From: a virus
Strand: one strand, 5' to 3'
DNA length: 29,598 bases
IMG/VR virus record: IMGVR_UViG_3300031525_000027
Coordinates: 1-29,598 of that record
In this document: positions 1 through 24,049 of the stretch, piece by piece
Numbering within the stretch: the stretch's first letter is position 1
Layout: the number at the start of each line of letters is the position of its first letter
Notes under the pieces: generated by a model
Databases searched by the model: none
What the model saw: only the letters and a program-made list of their open reading frames with translations
Told to the model about the DNA's origin: nothing
Translations under genes and position numbers: made by a program

Positions 1-1620
1 GGCTTTCGCGCGCGCCGCCTTGGCTATGGCTTCGGGGTGACCCGCAGGAAGACCAGCAGCCATCTCAAGGACGTCCTCATCTTTTCCGTCCGTCAGCTCC
101 GCCGTCTCTTCTTGGACCAGAGTCACGAGTATTCCGCACATCTGAATGACAAGCGCCTTCAGCTTTGCTGGTATTTCAGTGGCTTTATCATCCTCCATGA
201 ACTGCTCGAAGGCGACGGTGCTTTGCAGACTCTGAAGCTCATTGAGTAGATTGGCCATCCAACCCACTTGATGAAGCCCCTTCTGGAGATCAGTTGCGGG
301 CGCGGCCTTTTCTTTCTTGTCCTTCTTCTTGCCTTTCCAGTCATCGGGAAGGGCATCCTCGGCCCCAATCGCCTTGGCGCGCGCAATGATGTGCGCTTTC
401 ACTTCCGGCTTAGAACCGGCACGGCCCCAATCATGAACTGCATTCTCCACATCCTTCTTCGTCTTAATTGGGAATGAGCCATCTTCCATGGCTTCCTTGC
501 CGGCCATTTCCTTGTGCTCCTTGTCGGAATAATCCTTTTTCCCGAGCGCATCAGCAGCTGCTTTGTCGGCCTCTTCCTTGGCGGCTTTTTCCTTCGCGGC
601 CATTTCGGCATCGTCTTTCTCGGCCTTTTCCTTCGCCTTTTTGGCCTTCTCCTCGCGGCGCTCCTTCTTGGCCTTTTTCTCGTCTTCCGAGTCGCCGTCC
701 TTGTCCTCATCGTCCTCGGGCTTCTTAGCGGCTTTCAGTAGCTGATCCATTTGGGACAGCGCGGGTGCAAGCTCGGCTTGCTTTTCGAGGTGGAGATTAT
801 GGACTTCGGCTTCGCGCTTGCTGTCGAACGGAGTGCTGTCATTGGCGAGCCACTTCTGCACCGGCGCAGACTTGGGCTTTACTGCCTTGCCGTCCTTCAC
901 GAGCGCGGGCTTCGCATCAGTGGCAACCTTCGCCAGCAACGCCTTCTGCTCGTCCGTCGCCTCGCCTTTGGCATCCGCATCCTGAGCGGCTTTCAGCAAT
1001 TCCGCATCGGCCTGCGCAATGAGCGCCTTCTGTTCGTCAGTTGCAGTGCCTTTTGCCAGCGCCTCTTTGGCGGCAGTGAGTGCCTTGGGGTCCATGGAAT
1101 CCTCGTTGTGTGAAGGGGTGATGAATTTGCGCAGCTCGTGTGAGCCGTCCATTTTGATCGCGGTGAAAGTGGCCGTTGGAACACAGGGGTTATCGACGAG
1201 CGATATTTCGCTCAGCTCGGGAGTGAAACGCCAAAAACTGGGGTTATCCTTGTCCTGCCAGCGCTTCGTGTAAGAACCGCCGATGGAAAAGCCCGTATAG
1301 ACACCTTCACGGCACTTTTCCCACTCATCCTCGTCGATGATCTTGGCCACGCCTTCGATGCGTTTGTTGTCGTCATCGAAGGAAATATCTGTGAACTTGC
1401 CAGCGGCCACCTTATCGTGCATGGCACGTACATTGCCCAGCGATTTTCCACCCGAGGCGGCCTTAATCTCGTCGGACCATGCCTGAACGGCAGGCTTGCC
1501 GGATGCGTAATCAAAAATCTCTCCCGACTTATCCGGGCATTCCTCAGTCAGAACGCCATATACCAAGCGTTTTTCCTCGTCGATCTTCGTGATCGGAAGA
1601 AAGAGACGAAGCTCGGACAT
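1..1620 (-). CDS. Phage head maturation protease (XkdF/S78-like), 3' end outside window
   Basis: The frame is open for 540 codons from the ATG at 1620 to the window edge, so the C-terminus is missing. Residues about 1-155 look like a prohead protease: a candidate catalytic His at H68 (motif AMHDK), the YTGFSIGGS motif with S112, and LSEISLVDNPC near 137-146, which matches the family's usual end of the protease domain. A long Lys/Glu/Ala-rich, probably helical scaffold-like stretch follows (about 265-380). Then comes a DUF6582-like segment near 382-428 (KKDVENAVHDWGRAG and following). Known role of the family: cleaving scaffold and capsid proteins during head assembly. The location downstream of portal and MuF fits. 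No clear ribosome-binding site precedes the start, but it is the first in-frame ATG and the fold begins right there. Family assignment is by motif recognition. Confidence 0.75.
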   Translation of the reverse strand, partial: MSELRLFLPITKIDEEKRLVYGVLTEECPDKSGEIFDYASGKPAVQAWSDEIKAASGGKSLGNVRAMHDKVAAGKFTDISFDDDNKRIEGVAKIIDEDEWEKCREGVYTGFSIGGSYTKRWQDKDNPSFWRFTPELSEISLVDNPCVPTATFTAIKMDGSHELRKFITPSHNEDSMDPKALTAAKEALAKGTATDEQKALIAQADAELLKAAQDADAKGEATDEQKALLAKVATDAKPALVKDGKAVKPKSAPVQKWLANDSTPFDSKREAEVHNLHLEKQAELAPALSQMDQLLKAAKKPEDDEDKDGDSEDEKKAKKERREEKAKKAKEKAEKDDAEMAAKEKAAKEEADKAAADALGKKDYSDKEHKEMAGKEAMEDGSFPIKTKKDVENAVHDWGRAGSKPEVKAHIIARAKAIGAEDALPDDWKGKKKDKKEKAAPATDLQKGLHQVGWMANLLNELQSLQSTVAFEQFMEDDKATEIPAKLKALVIQMCGILVTLVQEETAELTDGKDEDVLEMAAGLPAGHPEAIAKAARAKA

Positions 1621-1892: not shown

Positions 1893-2059
1893 CCGTCTTT
1901 TTTGCCAGATAGATCGAAACCCATTGGCTGTCTTGACTTGACGAAAGGCAGACCTGTATGGTCGTAGACGACCGGTTGTTGCGGCTTATCCTGTTCGAGT
2001 ACCGTTCTCACTTCCGGCACCCGACCGCCGTCAAACCACCAGTCATTCATCTTCGTCAT
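1889..2059 (-). CDS. Small hypothetical protein, 56 aa
   Basis: The start was placed at the ATG at 2059 because AAGGA lies 8-9 nt upstream; it overlaps the 3' end of MuF by 17 bp. The open frame extends further upstream, but only as antisense-like sequence inside MuF. The product begins MTKMNDWWFDGG, has a central PVVYDHTGLPF segment that looks like a short beta hairpin and ends in a basic GKKDG tail. No family is recognised. Small genes here often encode head-completion or decoration proteins; that is only a positional inference. Confidence 0.6.
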   Translation of the reverse strand: MTKMNDWWFDGGRVPEVRTVLEQDKPQQPVVYDHTGLPFVKSRQPMGFDLSGKKDG

Positions 2060-2573
2060 CGTTTGAATCCTTCTCGTCATCGACCACCGACTCCGTATGG
2101 CATTCGCAATTTGGATGGGCGGTTTCGCAGTCATCTCCGCTTGGAAAGGAGTCTTCGACGTCGATTTCGCCAGCATCCTGATTTTCTTCGCAGATAGGAC
2201 AAGGGTCTGAATCGCATACCCAAATCTTCTTCAGCTTCACGCCAGCCGCTTTCGCTTCCTTGTACCCCGCCAAGGCCCCCTGCCCGGTCGCCATCGCTAC
2301 TTCCGTATCGGCGATCAGCGTGGCGCGTTCTTGGCCGAAAATGCCAGACGCCATAATCTGGTCGATGATATCCTCCCGCATCGCTCCGGCTTCAAGGCCG
2401 TCACCGACGATCGTGCGCAGCATGTCGCGCGTCGAGTCGTCGATATCGGTCACCAACTCGGCGGCGCGTTGTTTTGCATACGCCGCCGCGCGCTCATTCG
2501 CATGGCTGAAGAAATCTGTTTCCTCGGAGATTCCAAGGGAAACCAATTCATCACCTGCTCGGTCTGCCGCCAC
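2043..2573 (-). CDS. MuF-type minor head / head morphogenesis protein
   Basis: From a GTG start this is 176 aa. It carries the C-terminal half of the MuF (SPP1 gp7-like) domain: ADTEVAMATGQGALAGY, then a cysteine cluster CDSDPCPIC and finally AHPNCECH, the usual zinc-ribbon-like end of the family. MuF proteins are minor head proteins that work with the portal during assembly. The start is questionable. The same frame stays open upstream to 2844 and reads like protein (for example DLELLAGLTAVHPWLE) but contains no ATG, GTG or TTG before 2573. The upstream part overlaps the end of the portal gene in the -1 frame, so the natural product may be a portal-MuF fusion made by frameshifting. The tail is very acidic (DDEKDSNDDEDE). 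Confidence 0.82.
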   Translation of the reverse strand: MAADRAGDELVSLGISEETDFFSHANERAAAYAKQRAAELVTDIDDSTRDMLRTIVGDGLEAGAMREDIIDQIMASGIFGQERATLIADTEVAMATGQGALAGYKEAKAAGVKLKKIWVCDSDPCPICEENQDAGEIDVEDSFPSGDDCETAHPNCECHTESVVDDEKDSNDDEDE

Positions 2574-2749
2574 ATTTTCAAGCCACGGATGAACGGCTGT
2601 GAGGCCAGCAAGTAATTCAAGGTCAAGATCGGTGACTATTCCATCGGATTCATCATCGCTATCGGCCTTGGCGAGTTTTCCCAGCGCTGTTTTTAGCTGC
2701 TTGGCTACCGACCTGCCGGTTTTCGCCAGAACCTTCGCGGCAAGCCGCT

Positions 2750-4363
2750 TTATGGCTCCGCGCGATTTCCGTGCCTGTAACCTGTCATGAGGAGATATGG
2801 ATTGGGCTTTTTTTTTAAGCCCTTGGCCATTTTGCTGTTTGTGTCAGCATGGTCATCCGGCTGCTTTTGTTTAGATTTTGGGTTATTAGGCGCTTTCTGG
2901 CCGCCACCATCACCCCCGCTGTGTTCATCGTCTATCTGACGACCGCCATTGTGACCCATGCGCGCCGCTGCGGCATCTGACATAGCCTGCTGCTGTGCCT
3001 GATTGTCGGCGTCCTGCTCTTCCGGTGATTTGATGGCAACATATCCGGTTGCGGTGAGTGCCATCGGCACTGCGAAAGCACCCCCTAAAGCATCTTCGCC
3101 CATACCATCGCGCGCTTCATCGATGGAGATAATTCCTGCTTTAACATCGCCCTGCCGGATGGTCGCCGCCACCTCTGGGTCCATTTCGCGGTCGTCCTGA
3201 TAGTCAAATACCAGATCAGGAGACTTGAAATCTTCGGCGATGATACGATTCCAGAATTTCCGGATGAACTTCATCAGCGGCGCAAGGCCTTCCTCGCGCG
3301 CCTGATCGTGCTGGTTTTCCGCTACCGCACGGTTATTCGCTTTCACCAGAGCAGTGGGCGATATCGAGAAGACGAAACAAATAACCCGTGTCAGGTAATC
3401 GTCATATTCATCCTTCAGTACCGGCTCTTTCGTGGCCTGGTACTTGAACTCACCGGGAAGAAACTTAAGATGACGGCGCTGCCCGAGATTCCCGGACATC
3501 ATCGAATCCCACCACTTCTGGAAATCCGTGATCTGTTCTTGCGTCCAATCCTTCGGGAGCCCAAGGAAGGCATCGGGTTGACTGCCTTCGCGGTAGTATT
3601 CCAGCTGGGACAGCGCCCGCCGGATGGCAGTGTTTACCGTGATGATTATCTGCTCAACATGGGAGTAGCCGTACAGCTTGTGACTGCGTGGATTCCGCAT
3701 CAGGTAGAGCAGCTCGTCCGAAGTGTAATCGACAGCCGGAACGCCTTTCAGCACTTCCTGATAAGCCGGATCGGGAGGTGAGGGCCGGAAGCCATAATCG
3801 TTAATAAGAGGCTTTATCCTCGCGCCGTCGATTATCCTAAGCGCGTAGAGATCACCCTTCCGGTCCGGCCAGCGATACACGCTCGCTGCGTCGATAACGA
3901 ACGCGTCTTCGAGTAACATCCGCATCCACTGATCGAAGCCCCGTTCCTTATCGGGACTCTCCATGAACGCGGTAATCTTTTCGATACGCTTCTGCTGGTC
4001 TGCAGTAGCCGTCACACGCTTTTTGTCGCCGTCAATCGGCTTGACCTTTACCCCCCAGTCCAGTGCTTCGATCTGATCCTTGCGGGTTTCGATGACGGCG
4101 CGCAGGATGTCGCAGTTATCGGCAAGTCCTCGCATGTCCGCGAAGGAAACACCCTCATTGCCGCGCGGGCTGTAGTTAAGATTCAGTCCGGTGGGATAGT
4201 CCCACGTGCGGCCCTTGACATCCGCAGGGGCCACGGGCGGCAGAGGCTGCAACGGCGAAAACCACCCGTTTGGTGCGACGCCGGAGACAACGTAGCGCGC
4301 AGCCTGCGTCACGCGCCTGACGATGCCGGGGGAGATCGGCGTTACCTTTCCCCCTTCCGGCAT
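2750..4363 (-). CDS. Phage portal protein (HK97/Phage_portal family)
   Basis: The protein is 537 aa. It forms the dodecameric ring at the capsid vertex through which DNA enters and leaves. Visible family features: an N-terminal LADNCDILRAVIETRKDQI helix around residues 80-98; a clip/stem region with LYALRIIDGARIKPL; YGYSHVEQIIITVNTAIRRALSQLEYYREG; and the hallmark ISPTALVKANN followed by ENQHDQAREEGLAPLMKFI. The C-terminus is low-complexity (Gln/Asp/Lys-rich, GGDGGGQKAPNN and similar) and ends 18 codons beyond an A9 slippery run. The start has a GAGGT ribosome-binding site about 6 nt upstream. Length and order (terminase, portal, MuF, protease) are standard for HK97-like phages. Confidence 0.95.
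   Translation of the reverse strand: MPEGGKVTPISPGIVRRVTQAARYVVSGVAPNGWFSPLQPLPPVAPADVKGRTWDYPTGLNLNYSPRGNEGVSFADMRGLADNCDILRAVIETRKDQIEALDWGVKVKPIDGDKKRVTATADQQKRIEKITAFMESPDKERGFDQWMRMLLEDAFVIDAASVYRWPDRKGDLYALRIIDGARIKPLINDYGFRPSPPDPAYQEVLKGVPAVDYTSDELLYLMRNPRSHKLYGYSHVEQIIITVNTAIRRALSQLEYYREGSQPDAFLGLPKDWTQEQITDFQKWWDSMMSGNLGQRRHLKFLPGEFKYQATKEPVLKDEYDDYLTRVICFVFSISPTALVKANNRAVAENQHDQAREEGLAPLMKFIRKFWNRIIAEDFKSPDLVFDYQDDREMDPEVAATIRQGDVKAGIISIDEARDGMGEDALGGAFAVPMALTATGYVAIKSPEEQDADNQAQQQAMSDAAAARMGHNGGRQIDDEHSGGDGGGQKAPNNPKSKQKQPDDHADTNSKMAKGLKKKPNPYLLMTGYRHGNRAEP
2807..2813 (-). other. Candidate -1 ribosomal frameshift site (A AAA AAG) near the portal 3' end
   Basis: In the portal frame the minus strand reads TTA AAA AAA AAG CCC, so the heptamer A AAA AAG is in the zero frame, as in the dnaX slippery site. 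A -1 slip enters the open MuF frame after portal residue 519 and skips the portal stop at 2750-2752, giving a product of about 773 aa. The run is nine A residues and is itself flanked by GGGC and GCCC. An AAGGG lies just upstream. A hairpin with arms CGCGGAGCC and GGCTtgCCGCG lies at 2736-2762, about 44 nt downstream. A sequencing or assembly indel in the A run is the main alternative. Confidence 0.5.
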
Positions 4364-4382: not shown

Positions 4383-5117
4383 CTAGACGCCGAGCGAGAC
4401 GGCGGGCGTATCCGCGTTAAGCGTGAGCGTCGCGCTTGCCGGGAATGTTGCGGGCAATGCGCCGTAGGTGGCTGCGACCGAGATACCCGTGACCGCCTCG
4501 CCCGATGCCACAAGAGCATGCGCCGCGGTGTCGTAGCCCAGCTCGTTCGAGATCGTTCCGGTGTAAAGCGTCTTCACACCCTCTACGCTCGGGAACGTGC
4601 TGGAAGCCGTAAAGATCGAGGCAATCCAGTACCAACCGGGGGTGAGGGTCGGAGGAACGGTAGGTGTGGTGGTGGAGACAGCCGTGCCGGTCAATCCCGT
4701 TACCGCGCCGGAATCATAAATAAGCGCGCCGGGATAGCCGTTGCTGTCGGCATAGATACCCAGATGCGCCGCGCCACCGGTCTGGCCGGTCGTGACGCTA
4801 AGATTCAGCGTGGCGACGGAGACAGCATTCGGAACATAGATCGGGTAAGCATAGAGCGTGCCCGTCACCGTCAGCACGGGCTCAAGCGTCGCGCCGGGCG
4901 GCAGGCCGTAGAAGCGGCCTTTTACCCACGGGAGCACCGGAGCATTTTCGGGGCTGGGGATCAGCGAGCAGCCGCCCTTCAACAGGTCGGTTACGTCAGT
5001 GCCGACATTAACCGGCGTAACAACGCCATTGACGGCGGTGTACGTGTTCCCGCTCTGACACTGCTGGGTGTAATTGGGCTGGCCCGTGGGGGCCTGTAGG
5101 GTCGTAGTTGCCGTCAT
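4383..5117 (-). CDS. Putative virion structural protein with fibre/decoration-like beta domain
   Basis: The start was set at the ATG at 5117 because AAGGAG lies 6 nt upstream; the frame is open for 70 codons more, but that part overlaps the terminase end and has no ribosome-binding site. The 244-aa product is rich in Thr, Gly, Ala, Pro and Val. Its middle contains LGIYADSNGYPGALIYDSG and LTPGWYWIASIF, the pattern of beta-sandwich domains seen in phage fibres and decoration proteins. The N-terminus (NVGTDVTDLLKGGCSLI) resembles short phage surface proteins in which a GT..V..LL..GC stretch recurs. It sits between terminase and portal, an unusual slot for a fibre. Exact role unknown. Confidence 0.75.
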   Translation of the reverse strand: MTATTTLQAPTGQPNYTQQCQSGNTYTAVNGVVTPVNVGTDVTDLLKGGCSLIPSPENAPVLPWVKGRFYGLPPGATLEPVLTVTGTLYAYPIYVPNAVSVATLNLSVTTGQTGGAAHLGIYADSNGYPGALIYDSGAVTGLTGTAVSTTTPTVPPTLTPGWYWIASIFTASSTFPSVEGVKTLYTGTISNELGYDTAAHALVASGEAVTGISVAATYGALPATFPASATLTLNADTPAVSLGV

Positions 5118-5137
5118 AAGAACTCCTTGCGTGAGGT

Positions 5138-6556
5138 TTATGGTTGTTTCGTCTTTTCGGTAGATTTCTGTGCGGCCTTCGCCTGCGACTCCGCGTAGCC
5201 GAGCCAGCCGGCACCGGGAATGGGCTGCAGGATTGCGTTTACGGCACCGGCGAGCGCATCGACCTGATCGTCGTGGCCTTTCGTGGGAGGAAAATTCTCC
5301 AGCTCGCTGAAGAATGTTTCGTTCCACGCGCCCCGCACGACCTTGATATTGCCGACTTCAGCCTGCGAAGATGCCGGACCGGCACGCGTTACTTTATCGC
5401 CGGTCTCGCGCTCTGAGTGGACTATGTAGCCCGCAAGCTGCGTCGTCAGGTATGTTGACTGCGACTTTCCGGCCTGTCCGGGATCTTGGGGGATTCGTAT
5501 CCTTACGACCTTGCCGTCACCCGCAGCGATATTACTTATCGCGGTCTCCACGGTACGAGGGCTGCCCTGGAACCGCTCGACGTGCTCGACATAGAAGATT
5601 CCCCTGCCATCCCTCGAAAGCTTAAGGCCCACGGTCCAGTCGGGATCGCTGCCCTCTTTCTTTTCCGTCGCTGCCAGGTCCCAGCTTCTGATAGCTGGAA
5701 GCCCGGCAGGTGCGGCGTCTATCACCTCGAAATAGCTGCGCTTGAAATATAGACCGGCGCTCGGCCTGATTTTCCAGTTGCCCTTAAGAAGCCTCTCACG
5801 CTCGACCAGGGTCTGGGCTTTAAGATTCGCCTCATAATCCGGGTCCTTCTCCATGAGGATTTTGTTGTCCTCAAGCTTCGAGAGAATAAAGGTAACCGAT
5901 TTAGGCTCGTTGGCCTTGGTGCCCGGACTTCCCGCGATCAGTTCTTCTTTGCTATCGCCCCATACAAGGTCGTCGCCACGGCGGATAAACCACCGGACCA
6001 CGCCGCTGCGTTCCTGTATCGCATATCCGGTATCCGGGTCAATCCACCAAGCGATGAACTCCGCCACCCAGCTATCTGCATCGGGATTCGTCGTTGCGCG
6101 GATATAAGGCTTGACGCCGCATGTCGTGCGATTGCGGCTCAGCATGTAGAAGAACTGCGTTTTCGTGAAACCGGTCAACTCGTCAAAGCCGATGAACGGT
6201 ATCTGTGCGCCCTTCCAAGCGTATTTTGTGGATTCCTTTTCCAGATGCGAGAAGCTGACCCGCGCGCCGGAAGGAAATCGCCAGTCGAGATTCTGTTCTC
6301 TCGGAACAGCCCCCGGAATCTGTCCATAGAGGCCTGAGCTTTCATCCCACAAACCGCCCTGCTTGCGGATTTCGACCGATTCGCGCCGAAAGATTACTGC
6401 GCCGAACTTGGGGTTCGCCATGTGGCGGAGCGCTTCAAGAAGCAGCCCGTATGATTTGCCGCCACCCGCAGCACCACCAAAAATAACGATGTCGGCCGGA
6501 GTGGACAGGAAGGTCTCTTGCGGCCCTTCCTGCGGCCTAATTTCCGTCGCGTCCAT
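5138..6556 (-). CDS. terL: Terminase large subunit
   Basis: The protein is 472 aa and is the ATP-driven motor and nuclease that packages DNA into the prohead. The ATPase domain shows Walker A GGAAGGGKS at residues 27-35, Walker B-like IPFIGFDEL near 119-127 and a coupling motif RATTNP. The C-terminal RNase H-like nuclease has the expected acidic positions: RSWDLA, then IPQDPGQAGK and GHDDQVDALAGA near the end. It overlaps the upstream candidate small subunit by 20 bp, consistent with coupled translation. Length is typical of the family. Confidence 0.95.
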   Translation of the reverse strand: MDATEIRPQEGPQETFLSTPADIVIFGGAAGGGKSYGLLLEALRHMANPKFGAVIFRRESVEIRKQGGLWDESSGLYGQIPGAVPREQNLDWRFPSGARVSFSHLEKESTKYAWKGAQIPFIGFDELTGFTKTQFFYMLSRNRTTCGVKPYIRATTNPDADSWVAEFIAWWIDPDTGYAIQERSGVVRWFIRRGDDLVWGDSKEELIAGSPGTKANEPKSVTFILSKLEDNKILMEKDPDYEANLKAQTLVERERLLKGNWKIRPSAGLYFKRSYFEVIDAAPAGLPAIRSWDLAATEKKEGSDPDWTVGLKLSRDGRGIFYVEHVERFQGSPRTVETAISNIAAGDGKVVRIRIPQDPGQAGKSQSTYLTTQLAGYIVHSERETGDKVTRAGPASSQAEVGNIKVVRGAWNETFFSELENFPPTKGHDDQVDALAGAVNAILQPIPGAGWLGYAESQAKAAQKSTEKTKQP

Positions 6557-9986: not shown

Positions 9987-10024
9987 GCCGCCTGCCCTTT
10001 CCTGAATTCCTCGATGTCCGTCAT
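9983..10024 (-). CDS. 13-aa micro-ORF linking two genes
   Basis: MTDIEEFRKGQAA starts in an ATGA overlap with the stop of the replication-type gene and ends in an ATGA overlap with the membrane protein start. It may serve only to carry ribosomes across the junction. Its own sequence contains the purine-rich site for the next gene. It is very short, hence low confidence. Confidence 0.25.
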   Translation of the reverse strand: MTDIEEFRKGQAA

Positions 10025-11187
10025 TTGCTGGCTACCCGCTTGTTTTGGTTAAGCTTCTGCTCGATAACCTCTTCTCTGGTCATTCCGGCATACGGGCTGG
10101 GAGCGGACACAGCAGGTTTCGCCAGTGGTTTCGTCTTCGCGCCCAAGAACCGGCTATACGCCTCTGGAACAGCGTCATCGAAATATTTAAGGGATTTCGG
10201 CTTCTTGCCGCCGTCCTTCAGCATTCCGGCCATTCGTTCCAGAAACAGCGCTTTCAGGAAGGGAATGTCTGCGCCGATGCCAAGGAAACGCTCGGCATAC
10301 ACCCGGTCATCGGCAGCTGGGAAAGCGCGCTGGTGTTCCTTCCCAAAAACCTCCACCCTTGCCGCATCGAACGCACGGATTACCAAAAGCACCGGGTCAG
10401 GTGGCGCGGCGTCTTCAGACACTGCACTATCCGTTGTTTCTTTCTTGCTTTCTGAAGTAGAAGACTGAAGATCGAAGATAGAAGGGCCGTCATCTTGCCG
10501 ATGGGATGTTATTTCCTTCCCGCTAGCGTGGTTTTCACCAACCCGGCGGCATGGTGAAACAAACTCATGCGGCAAGGTGTCCTTTTTTGCTTGATTACAA
10601 GGCCTGCACGCGGGCACAAGATTTTCGATGGCATTCTTACCGCCCTTACTGACGGGAATGTAGTGGTCCATCTCCCAATCATATTGAAGTGAAGTTTCGC
10701 AGTAGAAACAGGTTCCCCCGGTTTTCGCGTGGACTTTCTTTCGCAATGCAGGCCTGTGCAGGCCATACGGTGATTGTTTCTTTTTCTCGGCGGTAAAACG
10801 AGTGGCTACGCCAGCATTAGCTTTGATGTATTCATCACGAACCATTCGGCTTGAATACCAGAGTGGCCCCGGCTGATTGGCAACGAGAATGACTTCGGCC
10901 CCTTCTGAACCGGCGTGTCTCGGGCGAAAGCCAAACGGCTCGACCTGCTCATCGATATCTGCGCCCTTCATTACACCCTTAGCGACGATGGCACGCAGTT
11001 GTGCCACCTTACACCCAACCGCTTGAGCTATTTCTTTTAATGTCCATCTGACTACCCCATACTCTTCCTGGTCATGGAGGAGACACATAACGTCTATCCA
11101 AATACCCTTTTCTTCATGGGTACAGCGCCGAAGATTCGAATTACTCTGCCAGTCACCGACATAAAATTGGAAGGAAGGGCGCTTCAT
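10021..11187 (-). CDS. Replication-type protein (DUF1376-like) with an inserted HNH nuclease domain
   Basis: The start was set at 11187 (GGAGG 8 nt upstream, ATGA overlap with the upstream gene). The 388-aa protein begins with FQFYVGDWQSNSNLRRCTHEE and a winged-helix-like section (about 8-110), the pattern of DUF1376 phage replication-initiation proteins. Residues about 145-212 are a complete HNH domain: C160/C163 (CFYC), DH at 174-175, GGKNAIENLVPACRPCN with C194/C197. The remaining C-terminal part has a Ser/Glu-rich linker and the alpha-helical segment PVLLVIRAFDAARVEVFGKEHQ and following, seen in replisome-organiser proteins. I read this as a replication protein invaded by an HNH module; whether it still initiates replication is unknown. 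Confidence 0.82.
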   Translation of the reverse strand: MKRPSFQFYVGDWQSNSNLRRCTHEEKGIWIDVMCLLHDQEEYGVVRWTLKEIAQAVGCKVAQLRAIVAKGVMKGADIDEQVEPFGFRPRHAGSEGAEVILVANQPGPLWYSSRMVRDEYIKANAGVATRFTAEKKKQSPYGLHRPALRKKVHAKTGGTCFYCETSLQYDWEMDHYIPVSKGGKNAIENLVPACRPCNQAKKDTLPHEFVSPCRRVGENHASGKEITSHRQDDGPSIFDLQSSTSESKKETTDSAVSEDAAPPDPVLLVIRAFDAARVEVFGKEHQRAFPAADDRVYAERFLGIGADIPFLKALFLERMAGMLKDGGKKPKSLKYFDDAVPEAYSRFLGAKTKPLAKPAVSAPSPYAGMTREEVIEQKLNQNKRVASK

Positions 11188-11570
11188 GCGGCGACCTCCA
11201 AACGTTTCCCCTTCCGGCAATTGCAAGTGCGGCACAGGGTCTGAAGATTCTGCATATCATCCGCGCCGCCATTAGCCCGAGCCTTTATGTGATCGACCGT
11301 AAGGTCCTCTGTGGCGTCACACTTTACGCATCTGAATCCGTCACGCCTCCAGACGGCCAGCATCGTGGTAGCCGAAAGCTGCTTCCTAGTCGGAGACTTG
11401 GCCGATTTCTGTGGATTCGGCCACGTCAGAAATTCGCCGCTATGCGCTTCGTACCAAAGATTAGCCACGCCCTCGGCGCAACTATCGCAAACATGTAGCC
11501 GAAACTGGTACATGAATTGGGCTGTCTGGGACTTCCCGCAAATGAGGCAGTGGAATGGATCTTGGCTCAT
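11184..11570 (-). CDS. HNH endonuclease with N-terminal zinc ribbon
   Basis: The ATG at 11570 overlaps the previous stop (ATGA) and has GGGAGAG about 6 nt upstream. The 128-aa product has an N-terminal C8-C11/C28-C31 zinc ribbon and a C-terminal HNH domain: C81/C84 (CVKC), DH at 93-94, NGGADDMQNLQTLCRTCN with C113/C116, and a basic end. All metal-binding and catalytic positions look intact. It is directly followed by the gene that carries an inserted HNH domain, so one may be the source of the other, although the two domains differ clearly in sequence. Confidence 0.85.
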   Translation of the reverse strand: MSQDPFHCLICGKSQTAQFMYQFRLHVCDSCAEGVANLWYEAHSGEFLTWPNPQKSAKSPTRKQLSATTMLAVWRRDGFRCVKCDATEDLTVDHIKARANGGADDMQNLQTLCRTCNCRKGKRLEVAA

Positions 11571-11818
11571 GGCGCTCTCTCCCACCCATACGCCGCATAG
11601 GCCGCGTCGCGTTCTGCGGCGGTCAGACCCTCACATGCAACCCAATTTTCAATGGCAAAGCGTCTTTCGGCCGGCGTGCACCGTTCCAGCCTCAGAACTA
11701 ATTCCATGCCCTTTCTGAATCCCTGCAGCCTAAGATCCTCCTCCCACTCGTGGCGAGAAGTGCGGGGGAAATCTTGCATGCGGATAACTTGCGCGCGAAA
11801 CACGGTGGGGGGCATCAT
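11567..11818 (-). CDS. Hypothetical protein, 83 aa
   Basis: The start has AAAGGAGG upstream and overlaps the previous stop (a second ATG follows directly). The product is helical and rich in Arg, Glu and Ala (EWEEDLRLQGFRKGMELVLRL in two phrases, then CTPAERRFAIENWVA). The ending GLTAAERDAAYAAYGWERAP suggests an amphipathic C-terminal helix. No known domain is recognised. It is part of the coupled replication operon. Confidence 0.75.
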   Translation of the reverse strand: MMPPTVFRAQVIRMQDFPRTSRHEWEEDLRLQGFRKGMELVLRLERCTPAERRFAIENWVACEGLTAAERDAAYAAYGWERAP

Positions 11819-16584: not shown

Positions 16585-17454
16585 TCAGACGCGCATCGGC
16601 ATGATCACGCAGCGCACGCCATCAGCCTCAGATGATGTCAGCAGGTGCGGCTGGTTCTCCGCGTTCGTCTTGCTATCGATGCAGATATCCACCGCGGAAT
16701 TGTTCAGCGCCTTGAGTGCATCGATCAGATACCCGGCATTCAGGCCGGTTTGCAGCCTTACGGTGCCCTTGGGAATCAGCTTTTCGTAATCCGGGAAGTC
16801 CCCATCGACGGTTGTCGTGATGTATTCGAATTCGAAGAAATCGAATCGGATGTTGCCGCCGTCATCAATTACCTGCATGGTGAGGAATGGCGCATCCTTC
16901 GTGCCCGGAATCACCTTGATGAGATGATCGATTGCATTACGCGGGCAGATCACGGTAAAGGGTTCGAGGTTTTCAGATAGCTCCGCCTCGACATCGAATA
17001 TCTGTTCTTGCAGGATATGGCCGTTTGTGGCGCAAATCGTGACGCGCTGATTGTCGTACCGGATGAAAATGCCATTCAGGTAATAGCGCTCTACTTCCGT
17101 ACTCATAAACGGTTTCATCTTCTTCAGACGGGCCTTGAAGTCTTTGCCGTCCAGCTTGATGAGGGGGTAGCTCCGGCCTTCTTCTTCGGGAGGGAGTTTT
17201 TCGGCGGCAGCAGTCATGGAATCCTCATTCGCTTTGGGTTGTGGTGAAGTGCGGTGCCCACCTTCAGCAGCCTTCTTGAAGTGTTCCTTCAGTTTCTTCT
17301 CAGCTGCCTTGTCAAACGGCATCTCCGGGCCATCACCGATTTTGATGGTGCATTTGACGGCGGAGCCAGGGGCATCCTCTTCAGCCATCGCCCGCAGGCG
17401 CTCAGCAGCAGCTTCTGTGGAAACACGGTGGGGGGCATCTGTGGAGGGGGTCAT
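16585..17454 (-). CDS. DnaN-like sliding clamp with domains 2 and 3 only
   Basis: The start at 17454 is set by an ATGA overlap and GGGAGG upstream; a later ATG at 17217 with GAGG is possible. The 289-aa product has an 80-residue N-terminal extension rich in Ala, Glu and Lys. Then come two clamp domains. Domain 2 shows FMSTEVERYYLNGIFI and ICATNGHILQ (compare STEETRYYLNGI and ATDGHRL of DnaN). Domain 3 shows TTTVDGDFPDYEKLIPKG and ends VRCVIMPMRV (compare VDGxFPDY...IP and MPMRL). Domain 1 of bacterial DnaN is missing. A true clamp needs six domains in a ring, so this would have to trimerise or interact with the host clamp. Role in phage replication is likely. Confidence 0.8.
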   Translation of the reverse strand: MTPSTDAPHRVSTEAAAERLRAMAEEDAPGSAVKCTIKIGDGPEMPFDKAAEKKLKEHFKKAAEGGHRTSPQPKANEDSMTAAAEKLPPEEEGRSYPLIKLDGKDFKARLKKMKPFMSTEVERYYLNGIFIRYDNQRVTICATNGHILQEQIFDVEAELSENLEPFTVICPRNAIDHLIKVIPGTKDAPFLTMQVIDDGGNIRFDFFEFEYITTTVDGDFPDYEKLIPKGTVRLQTGLNAGYLIDALKALNNSAVDICIDSKTNAENQPHLLTSSEADGVRCVIMPMRV

Positions 17455-17708
17455 TTCTTCCTCCCCATCGGGGTAGGATTCGCGATATCTGGCCAAAGTG
17501 GTGCCTTATTGGAATCACACTCATCTGCCTTGTTTGTCGGCGCTGGGAGCGCCTTCAGGAAAGCAAGGTACGCATCGGCGCGCGCCGTCACCCACTCAGA
17601 TTCGTCAACAAGCACACCTTGGCCGGGAACCGGCTTATAGAACTCATTAGCGGCCTTAAGCGCTTCAATCCGCAAAAGTTGGTCAGGGGTGAGGGATGCG
17701 GAGGTCAT
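17451..17708 (-). CDS. Hypothetical protein, 85 aa
   Basis: ATGA overlaps at both ends couple it to the GIY-YIG gene and to the clamp gene. The N-terminal half is helical (SASLTPDQLLRIEALKAANE). A middle VLVDESEWVTARADAYLAFL has a weak amphipathic pattern, and the end is Pro/Asn-rich and basic (TPMGRKK). No family is recognised. Confidence 0.72.
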   Translation of the reverse strand: MTSASLTPDQLLRIEALKAANEFYKPVPGQGVLVDESEWVTARADAYLAFLKALPAPTNKADECDSNKAPLWPDIANPTPMGRKK

Positions 17709-18346
17709 GCGGCGGCTTGTTCTGTTGAGGGGGTCTTACTGGAGATTTCGAAGAAATGCCGTTGATGCACCGCGCCTTTTGTCCAGGCACGGATACGACG
17801 CAATTCTGGCAGGAACGGTAGACTTCCGCGCATGATTCGCTGGGCCCGATTGACATTAACTTTCAAGACTGCGGCAAGGTCTTCGATATCTTTGCCATGG
17901 GCTGTCATCCACTGGCGAAGCACTACGCCTCTGTCGGGCGGGATCGGCTTTTTCCGGACTCGCTGTATCGGAAGGCCGATGCGGTTGTAGGACCGTTCCT
18001 CCTTCCACAGAAGTGCGATAATTTCCAGCTCCCGCGCTTTAGCGATTTCGATTGAGTCGCACAACTCTATTATCTGGAAGACAAATGCTTCGTCGCCAAA
18101 CCGCACGAAATCATTTATCATCTCAATTCGGCGGTGGTATTCGCCGCGCATTCCGCGCGCATGACACCACATCCGCCGATAGACGTTCTCAGAAGATCCG
18201 ACATAAACCATGTTGGCCGGGACGCAAGTAACTGCGTAAACGCCGATCACTTCCTTGCGGTGGAATTGGGTCGCCATCGCCTTCAGTTCGCTAATCTTGA
18301 GCACTGGATGCCGGCTCGTAAGGATTGGAGTGTTGCGACCGTTCAT
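17705..18346 (-). CDS. GIY-YIG endonuclease fused to a Cro-like DNA-binding domain
   Basis: The protein is 213 aa. Residues 35-125 form a GIY-YIG domain: GVYAV (35-39), YVGSS (48-52), R58 in VYRRMW, an acidic residue in ARELEIIAL, and SYNRIG. Residues about 143-199 closely resemble the small Cro-like protein at 18813-19067: both have WM.A..K...DLA.V....RA.RI.RG.LP...E..RI..WT.GA, then a final F. GIY-YIG enzymes are often mobile (homing-type) nucleases; the Cro-like half should guide it to DNA, perhaps to the phage operators. Start chosen by the ATGA overlap with the upstream gene. Confidence 0.85.
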   Translation of the reverse strand: MNGRNTPILTSRHPVLKISELKAMATQFHRKEVIGVYAVTCVPANMVYVGSSENVYRRMWCHARGMRGEYHRRIEMINDFVRFGDEAFVFQIIELCDSIEIAKARELEIIALLWKEERSYNRIGLPIQRVRKKPIPPDRGVVLRQWMTAHGKDIEDLAAVLKVNVNRAQRIMRGSLPFLPELRRIRAWTKGAVHQRHFFEISSKTPSTEQAAA

Positions 18347-23100: not shown

Positions 23101-23408
23101 CCGACGCCGACAAATTCTGGAAGGATTTCGACGACTGCCAGGCCCAGGTGCGCGCGGAGATCATCGCTCACCGCCGCGTCGTGTCATTACGTCCCGATAT
23201 GACGGTGGAGCAGCGCGCCATCGTCGCCATTGAGGCGTTCACCGCGGCCATGGAGGGTCTGGACCATCAGGGCAACTCCATTTCCGCCAGCGCGGAGACG
23301 ATAGGGAAGCTCGAAGGGTGCGCAAGAAGCCTCGCGCTATTGCTCGGGCGTCTTCGGATGAGGCAGGGCTTGATGCATCTTACCGGGATATTCGGGAAGG
23401 CGCCATGA
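23097..23408 (+). CDS. Hypothetical protein, 103 aa
   Basis: ATGA overlaps on both sides. The product is helical, with FWKDFDDCQAQVRAEIIAHR, then LRPDMTVEQRAIVAIEAFTA and a late GCARSLALLLGRLRM. No domain is recognised. Coupling to the XRE gene before it and the HNH gene after it is the only contextual information. Confidence 0.75.
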   Translation: MTDADKFWKDFDDCQAQVRAEIIAHRRVVSLRPDMTVEQRAIVAIEAFTAAMEGLDHQGNSISASAETIGKLEGCARSLALLLGRLRMRQGLMHLTGIFGKAP

Positions 23409-24049
23409 AGAAGAACCACGACATTATCGAGATCGCCGGAGAGCTGCGCCACGAAACGGATTTCACCGCCCTACTCACGGCTTTACTTCGTCGCAAAGAT
23501 CGACTGCTCCGGGAGATGGCAATAGTGCGCTTGGCGGAAAAAGTAATCTTAGGCCCGACCGGGTGCTGGAACTGGACAGGCCATATTTCCAGTAATGGGT
23601 ACGGCTGGACAACGTGTTTTGGGAGGCGGCAGGCAGTCCATCGAATCTCCTATCAACTGTTTATTGGACCGATACCTACCGGCTGCGTTCTCGACCATCT
23701 CTGCCGCAACCGCTGTTGCATTAATCCAGAGCATTTAGACCCGGTTACCCAACTAGAGAATATGCGGCGCGGGATCGGTTTTATAGCCGCTCAAATGAAG
23801 CGAACAGCATGCCCTAAAGGACATCCACTCACGGGCGACAACCTTGTTACTCACTCTCTCAATATTCATGGGAAGCGGACATGTCGCAGATGTAGAGCCG
23901 ATAAGCAAAGTGCCTACTACTACAAGTTAAGAGATGAGATCAATGCAAGGCGGCGCGAACGGCACAAAACATTGCGCGCTCAAAGGAGCAACAATCCCAA
24001 AACCATGCAGATGGCCGAATGGGTTGCGCTGGAGAAAGGGCTTATATGA
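23405..24049 (+). CDS. HNH endonuclease, 214 aa
   Basis: The start at 23405 overlaps the previous stop (ATGA), with GGAAGG upstream. From about residue 50 there is an HNH_3-type domain: GCWNWTGHISSNGYG, then QAVHRISYQLFIGPIPTGCV, LDHLCRNRCCINPEHL and VTQLENMRRG. The catalytic His is in LDHLC and the CC motif precedes INPEHL. A second part has ACPKGHPLTGDN and TCRRCRADKQSAYY (zinc finger) and a basic tail. Such genes are usually mobile homing nucleases. The first 40 residues (IIEIAGELRHETDFTALL) look like the start of a different phage protein family. Confidence 0.85.
   Translation: MKKNHDIIEIAGELRHETDFTALLTALLRRKDRLLREMAIVRLAEKVILGPTGCWNWTGHISSNGYGWTTCFGRRQAVHRISYQLFIGPIPTGCVLDHLCRNRCCINPEHLDPVTQLENMRRGIGFIAAQMKRTACPKGHPLTGDNLVTHSLNIHGKRTCRRCRADKQSAYYYKLRDEINARRRERHKTLRAQRSNNPKTMQMAEWVALEKGLI

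Follow-up and report, generated by a model that had tools for sequence, protein, structure and literature searches.

A conserved run of nine or ten A at the portal/MuF junction of phage head genes as a probable slippage site

Portal/MuF Locus

The DNA analyzed here, referred to as the window, is a viral contig of 29.6 kb (IMGVR_UViG_3300031525_000027) taken at its full length of 29,598 nucleotides. Its head genes are encoded on the minus strand in the order terminase, a 314-aa ORF, portal, MuF, two small ORFs and an XkdF-like protease. The features considered below are the following:

5138..6556 (-): terminase large subunit, PHROG 979 (E 1.5e-165), upstream of the portal gene and in the same direction
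2750..4363 (-): portal protein ORF, 537 aa, the 0-frame product; stop at 2752-2750
2820..2824 (-): AAGGG upstream of the A-run, weakly Shine-Dalgarno-like, not conserved
2808..2816 (-): A9 run, putative slippage site, read in the portal frame as TTA AAA AAA AAG and followed by CCC
2807..2813 (-): A_AAA_AAG heptamer in the portal phase, a -1 site if the ribosome slips
2750..2806 (-): 0-frame tail past the A-run, 18 codons and the stop, overlapping the MuF frame
2043..2806 (-): MuF frame that a slip would enter, 254 aa, -1 relative to portal; stop at 2045-2043
2574..2806 (-): 5' part of the MuF frame without a start codon; its predicted helices would be lost or truncated if translation began at GTG 2573
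1..1620 (-): XkdF-like prohead protease, PF14550 (E 4e-4, just under the curated cut-off), with a charged C-terminal region; runs off the window

The portal ORF is a member of the Pfam family Phage_portal (PF04860, E 3.7e-17) and also matches PHROG 2662 (E 1e-72). The frame lying directly after it matches PF04233 (Phage_Mu_F) with E 3.4e-8 and 34.7 bits, against a curated cut-off of 29.6, which bears out the proposal of an earlier note on this DNA that the -1 frame is the MuF frame. The same note had placed an in-frame A_AAA_AAG within a run of nine A, 18 codons before the portal stop, and the sequence agrees; this run is the only run of at least eight A or T in the 29.6 kb of the window (56% GC). 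The MuF frame is indeed open, from 2843 to 2043 rather than from the previously given 2844, and its first ATG, GTG or TTG is, as had been stated, the GTG at 2573, located 234 nt past the A-run. A slip after portal codon 519 would append 254 residues (519 + 254), giving a predicted portal-MuF protein of 773 aa, the size estimated before, with the predicted junction peptide ..KKKAQSISPHDR..

The 314-aa ORF between terminase and portal (4383-5327, minus strand) overlaps the end of the terminase gene, an unusual place for such a gene, and shows a weak match to PHROG 25864, a family of unknown function. The XkdF-like protease (1-1620, minus strand) continues into a long region rich in lysine, alanine and glutamate that may be a fused scaffold; the ORF is cut by the contig end. 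The ORF at 16585-17496 (minus strand) matches the DNA polymerase processivity factor family PHROG 947 together with the RusA-like resolvases of PHROG 3007. Several HNH and GIY-YIG endonuclease genes are also present in the 29.6-kb window, at 10021-11585 (minus strand), 17705-18346 (minus strand) and 23318-24049 (plus strand).

Conservation of the A-Run

Relatives (313 sequences) were drawn from IMG/VR, GTDB contigs, and phage and plasmid records, and were sorted with portal and MuF profiles built for this work into 120 nonredundant portal+MuF loci. As every locus was recovered through similarity, the counts are not frequencies in nature; the -1 loci are nearly all metagenomic. Portal and MuF share one frame in 73 loci, MuF lies in the -1 frame in 38 and in the +1 frame in 8, and in one locus it follows in frame after a stop. 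A run of nine or ten A occupies the homologous junction in 53 of the 120, comprising 30 of the 38 -1 loci (A9 in 14, A10 in 16) and 23 of the 73 in-frame fusions (A9 in 13, A10 in 10). Junction runs of 8, or of 11 and more, are absent from all 120 loci. A run of at least 6 is present in 31 -1 loci; its length is 9-10 in 30 of them and 6 in one, with none at 7-8. Whenever an A-run locus is not fused, its MuF frame is in -1 (30:0 against +1).

Alignment of relatives, suggested earlier as a check on the A-run and the frame relation, shows that the run recurs at the same place, with MuF in -1, in 30 nonredundant loci from many lineages. Outside the junction, a single run of at least nine A occurs in 740,811 bases, corresponding to 0.016 expected, compared with 46 of 100 loci. 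Only two KKK tricodons are present in all portal cores, and neither is an unbroken A-run; consequently, the A-run seems to be retained for its own sake and not for lysine coding.

The frame offset might also be ascribed to a sequencing or assembly indel, or to a decayed fusion gene, since homopolymers are error-prone and the family contains in-frame fusions. Five relatives with 72-79% MuF identity have exactly A9 each, which makes an assembly indel very unlikely. An overlapping contig identical to the window (L002/L006, 7.36 kb at 100%) has the same A9 and may not be independent. Furthermore, the same A9, the -1 relation and MuF-frame selection recur in relatives whose MuF identity is as low as 72%, as well as in distant lineages, and the sequences come from different metagenomes. 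Assembly error was rejected, and error or decay is regarded as an extremely improbable origin of the arrangement.

In a quick tree of 111 portal cores, strongly supported branches force at least eight label changes of the -1/A-run state, which is interleaved with in-frame fusions keeping the run. The sister loci L056/L182 and L196/L283 differ in codon phase and have the same run class. The family has such a run in both -1 and in-frame arrangements, which could indicate a phase-variable contingency locus, in which replication slippage in the A-run toggles the fusion between genomes. However, the relatives include no near-identical pair with unequal run lengths, the lengths are confined to 9-10, and the close kin L296, L299 and L301 (A10) and L308 and L309 (A9) differ in length and are nonetheless all in frame. 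The equal run lengths of near relatives argue against both phase variation and assembly noise; phase variation was rejected on this ground and is considered highly unlikely.

The earlier note had held that relatives in which the A-run makes a single fusion would speak against slippage. Such loci do exist in form, namely the 23 in-frame fusions, yet the slippery run is kept in them. Probably the run gives rise to both products whether the encoded MuF frame is fused or in -1, so that a fused locus does not mean absence of slippage.

No close -1 relative was found among cultured phages by tblastn with three MuF queries. Brevundimonas phage Strzyga carries a plain in-frame portal-MuF fusion, a Herbaspirillum phage-plasmid (H95/L241) carries an in-frame fusion with A7, and the genomes sampled around Limnobacter have portals mostly without MuF of this kind. 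Culturable members that do have the run are Thermoanaerobacterium phage THSA-485A and the Limnobacter litoralis prophage, each an in-frame fusion with A9.

Translation and Fold of the MuF Frame

MuF homology precedes any start codon in all 30 of the -1 A-run loci. With 30 such loci at hand, the central proposal of the earlier note, a programmed frame change at the A-run that joins portal to MuF, is upheld. Sequence differences peak at MuF codon position 3 in two clades, one of them that of the window, both in the overlap with the portal tail and in the start-free stretch past the portal stop. Within the overlap, MuF codon position 3 coincides with portal position 2, and the overlap alone is not significant; the third-position bias reaches p = 0.005 for the window with L004 and L009 (three sequences, no start in 71 codons). 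As judged from this substitution pattern, which shows selection in the MuF frame, the start-free stretch is translated in that frame.

The AlphaFold model of MuF was poor with 9 sequences (pLDDT 60) and reached pLDDT 86 with 65. In the latter model, helices span residues 12-48, 53-61 and 66-92, and GTG 2573 corresponds to residue 81. Since all three helices lie before or across this residue, a start at GTG 2573 would break the MuF domain and cut helix 3. A PDB fold search with the model returned nothing significant; its BFVD matches are MuF/minor capsid proteins.

These results bear on the alternative that MuF is made as a separate protein, by internal initiation or by reinitiation coupled to the portal stop. 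A TTG or GTG overlaps the portal stop in 6 of the 30 A-run loci, and the -1 loci L190 and L205, which are without the run, have an ATG at -4; an ordinary gene overlap is plausible for both. Against a separate MuF stand the homology ahead of any start in every A-run locus and, in the window, the distance of the first start from the run and the damage that it would do to helix 3. Moreover, the A9/A10 run would be left unexplained, and a separately initiated MuF is thought very improbable.

RNA Polymerase or Ribosome

Slippage at the A-run, whether by RNA polymerase or by the ribosome, is highly probable from the sequence, and plain portal and portal-MuF are very probably both made through programmed slippage. 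Because the A-run would be slippery for either machine, both may act; in E. coli the same A-run would be expected to slip on the ribosome too.

Several features point to the polymerase. The run lengths of 9 and 10 only were counted toward it: nine A's slip and eight do not (PMC1088944), and the hybrid of RNA polymerase is 9-10 bp, with extra A's being inserted (PMC5009743). A run of at least nine A or T within a coding region, as looked for in transcriptional slippage, is present in the window (A9), and its relatives have A9-A10 only. Near stops in the non-productive frames, a second mark of transcriptional slippage, are also found. The maximum over both frames has a median of 12 codons, compared with 37 in run-free fusions (p = 8e-6); in the within-gene control, p was 3e-7 in fusions (+1 frame) and 1.5e-4 in -1 loci (third frame). 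All statistical tests of this work count loci as independent except in thinned sets (the within-gene stop control). Near stops occur also in a frame that a -1 ribosomal shift never enters, which favors the polymerase. A published criterion for transcriptional slippage is that orthologues are not limited to one frameshift direction (PMC3711429); with the A-run, -1 and in-frame arrangements are both seen and +1 never. The -1-only direction of the non-fused loci is a counterpoint, fitting a ribosomal -1 shift equally with insertion-biased polymerase slippage.

The earlier note had favored programmed -1 ribosomal frameshifting of the dnaX type, in which the tRNA-Lys pair on A_AAA_AAG slips back one base on an unchanged mRNA and the same 773-aa fusion results. 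The part of this reading that stands is the heptamer, which is in phase in the window; the A_AAA_AAG/AAC phase is found in 23 of the 30 -1 A-run loci, compared with 11 of the 23 fused ones (Fisher p = 0.04, loci counted as independent). The constant -1 direction of the non-fused A-run loci agrees with it as well. In addition, nine fused loci with short runs (A6/A7) have A_AAA_AAR in frame at the junction, where 0.16 would be expected (p = 7e-14, same genes as background), and two -1 relatives are without a long run, L160 having TCA AAA AAG after GGAG and L032 the CGA AAG site of B. subtilis cdd (reference within PMC5009743). These A6G, CGA_AAG and A6/A7 sites are too short for the polymerase.

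The part that does not stand is the stimulation expected of a dnaX-type site. The AAGGG of the window pairs with the anti-SD at dG -4.2, and 18% of background windows pair as strongly, which removes its standing as a special element; the downstream hairpin proposed as a helper is likewise unsupported, the MFE of the 60 nt past the run having z = +1.2. Across 46 loci, neither an SD-like nor a structural stimulator is enriched at the junction (mean z -0.2 to -0.4; anti-SD pairing near background). Furthermore, A6G would suffice for the ribosome, yet all but one of the -1 runs of at least 6 have 9-10 A; the codon phase is unequal between the two pairs of sister loci, and near stops lie also where no -1 shift leads. 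A ribosomal route to the fusion is accordingly judged possible but not probable. The polymerase route, in which slippage of RNA polymerase at the A-run gives portal and portal-MuF, is favored with modest confidence.

Proposed Mechanism and Mixed Portal Ring

It is proposed that the portal gene and the MuF frame constitute one expression unit holding a site of programmed slippage. On messages that keep the encoded A9, translation would end at the portal stop 18 codons further on and give the plain portal of 537 aa. At the A9, RNA polymerase would realign on the RNA-DNA hybrid and add A, mostly one, to a fraction of the transcripts, and these would be read into the -1 frame to give the 773-aa portal with its MuF domain on a flexible linker. 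Both portal forms would co-assemble, and the 12-subunit ring would carry a few MuF domains inside the head. In fused relatives, where the in-frame fusion is encoded, slippage would shorten some copies to the plain portal.

At ~10-20% slippage, a 12-mer would contain about one to two MuF-tagged subunits; the rate for tssM1 is ~20% (PMC4256274). In SPP1, the MuF protein gp7 is reported to be present in 1-2 copies per capsid (PMC5576092), and the proposed few-MuF ring, inferred here from genes, matches this copy number. The twelve subunits of a portal ring are usually taken to be identical, and it is not obvious how one or two MuF would be accommodated in a 12-fold ring. If the proposal is true, the tagging of a fraction of portal subunits with MuF through slippage answers this copy-number question in these phages and explains the start-less MuF frames beside portal genes. 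It would further place a frequent and apparently undescribed recoding site among phage head genes, and provide natural A9/A10 sites for comparing polymerase with ribosome slippage.

The 39 fused loci without any run of 6 or more indicate that in some relatives every subunit can carry MuF. Consequently, the mixed ring is proposed here without being a general rule, and not every phage of the family needs one. In a broader form, many uncultured phages would set the make-up of their portal ring via RNA-polymerase slippage, with 9-10 A matching the polymerase hybrid and a fixed fraction of the 12 subunits bearing MuF, and lineages would have repeatedly swapped lengthening and shortening versions; we hold this wider view to be evenly poised.

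Comparison with Known Systems

The portal/MuF locus resembles Thermus thermophilus dnaX, an A9 case of transcriptional slippage, in its A9 run, in a predicted pair of proteins with a common N-terminus, and in near stops in both non-zero frames (PMC5009743 for Thermus; measured here for portal/MuF). In contrast to the Thermus gene, where the long form is encoded, the window encodes the short form, and the proteins concerned are structural phage proteins instead of replication proteins. Citrobacter rodentium tssM1 and Yersinia tssM3 (PMC4256274) also have a poly-A run just ahead of a stop, and slippage lengthens one of these proteins and shortens the other, as is proposed for -1 compared with fused loci. 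The differences are the A11 of tssM1, the product (a secretion-system membrane protein) and the kind of evidence, which is measured transcripts for tssM and gene sequences for portal/MuF. With E. coli dnaX the locus shares the identical A_AAA_AAG heptamer in phase; unlike it, the portal/MuF run is longer than needed and lacks a conserved upstream SD or downstream hairpin.

Among phage structural genes, lambda gpG/gpGT, the T3/T7 coat protein, A2, PSA and SPP1 17.1/17.5 offer parallels, each with a ratio-setting frame change and a C-terminally extended minor form. These frameshifts concern other genes, and none joins portal to MuF in the literature searched. The site of the window lies between portal and MuF, and not between the major tail and tape-measure genes as in the lambda gpG/gpGT tail chaperones. 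Single-gene portal-MuF fusions (PHROG 2662, Brevundimonas phage Strzyga, Microbacterium EA/EB and Arthrobacter Sonali phages) contain the same two domains in the same order; they do so in one frame, whereas the window needs a frame change. The KL1/AH2 phages were considered as a prior case and rejected, having separate portal and head genes, each with its own RBS. No published portal-MuF frameshift was found in the open-access papers searched, and the setting of a mixed ring by slippage in a virus head appears to be undescribed so far.

Further Observations on the Relatives

At the -1 junction of L032 (4778-4815), which is without the A-run, the sequence reads AAG AGA GGT AAG CGA AAG CCC, so that the CGA AAG known from cdd is preceded by an SD-like AGAGGT. 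In L160 (3898-3959), the A6G site stands alone, with the GGAG 8 nt upstream; this locus is sister to an A10 clade and may represent a switch to a ribosomal site. Finally, the MuF frames of L142 (4007-5404), L176 (4007-5398), L187 (2735-3850) and L114 (3534-4607) are ~100-200 residues longer than usual, and their C-terminal part, which carries no Pfam name, could comprise portal-tethered cargo or effector domains.
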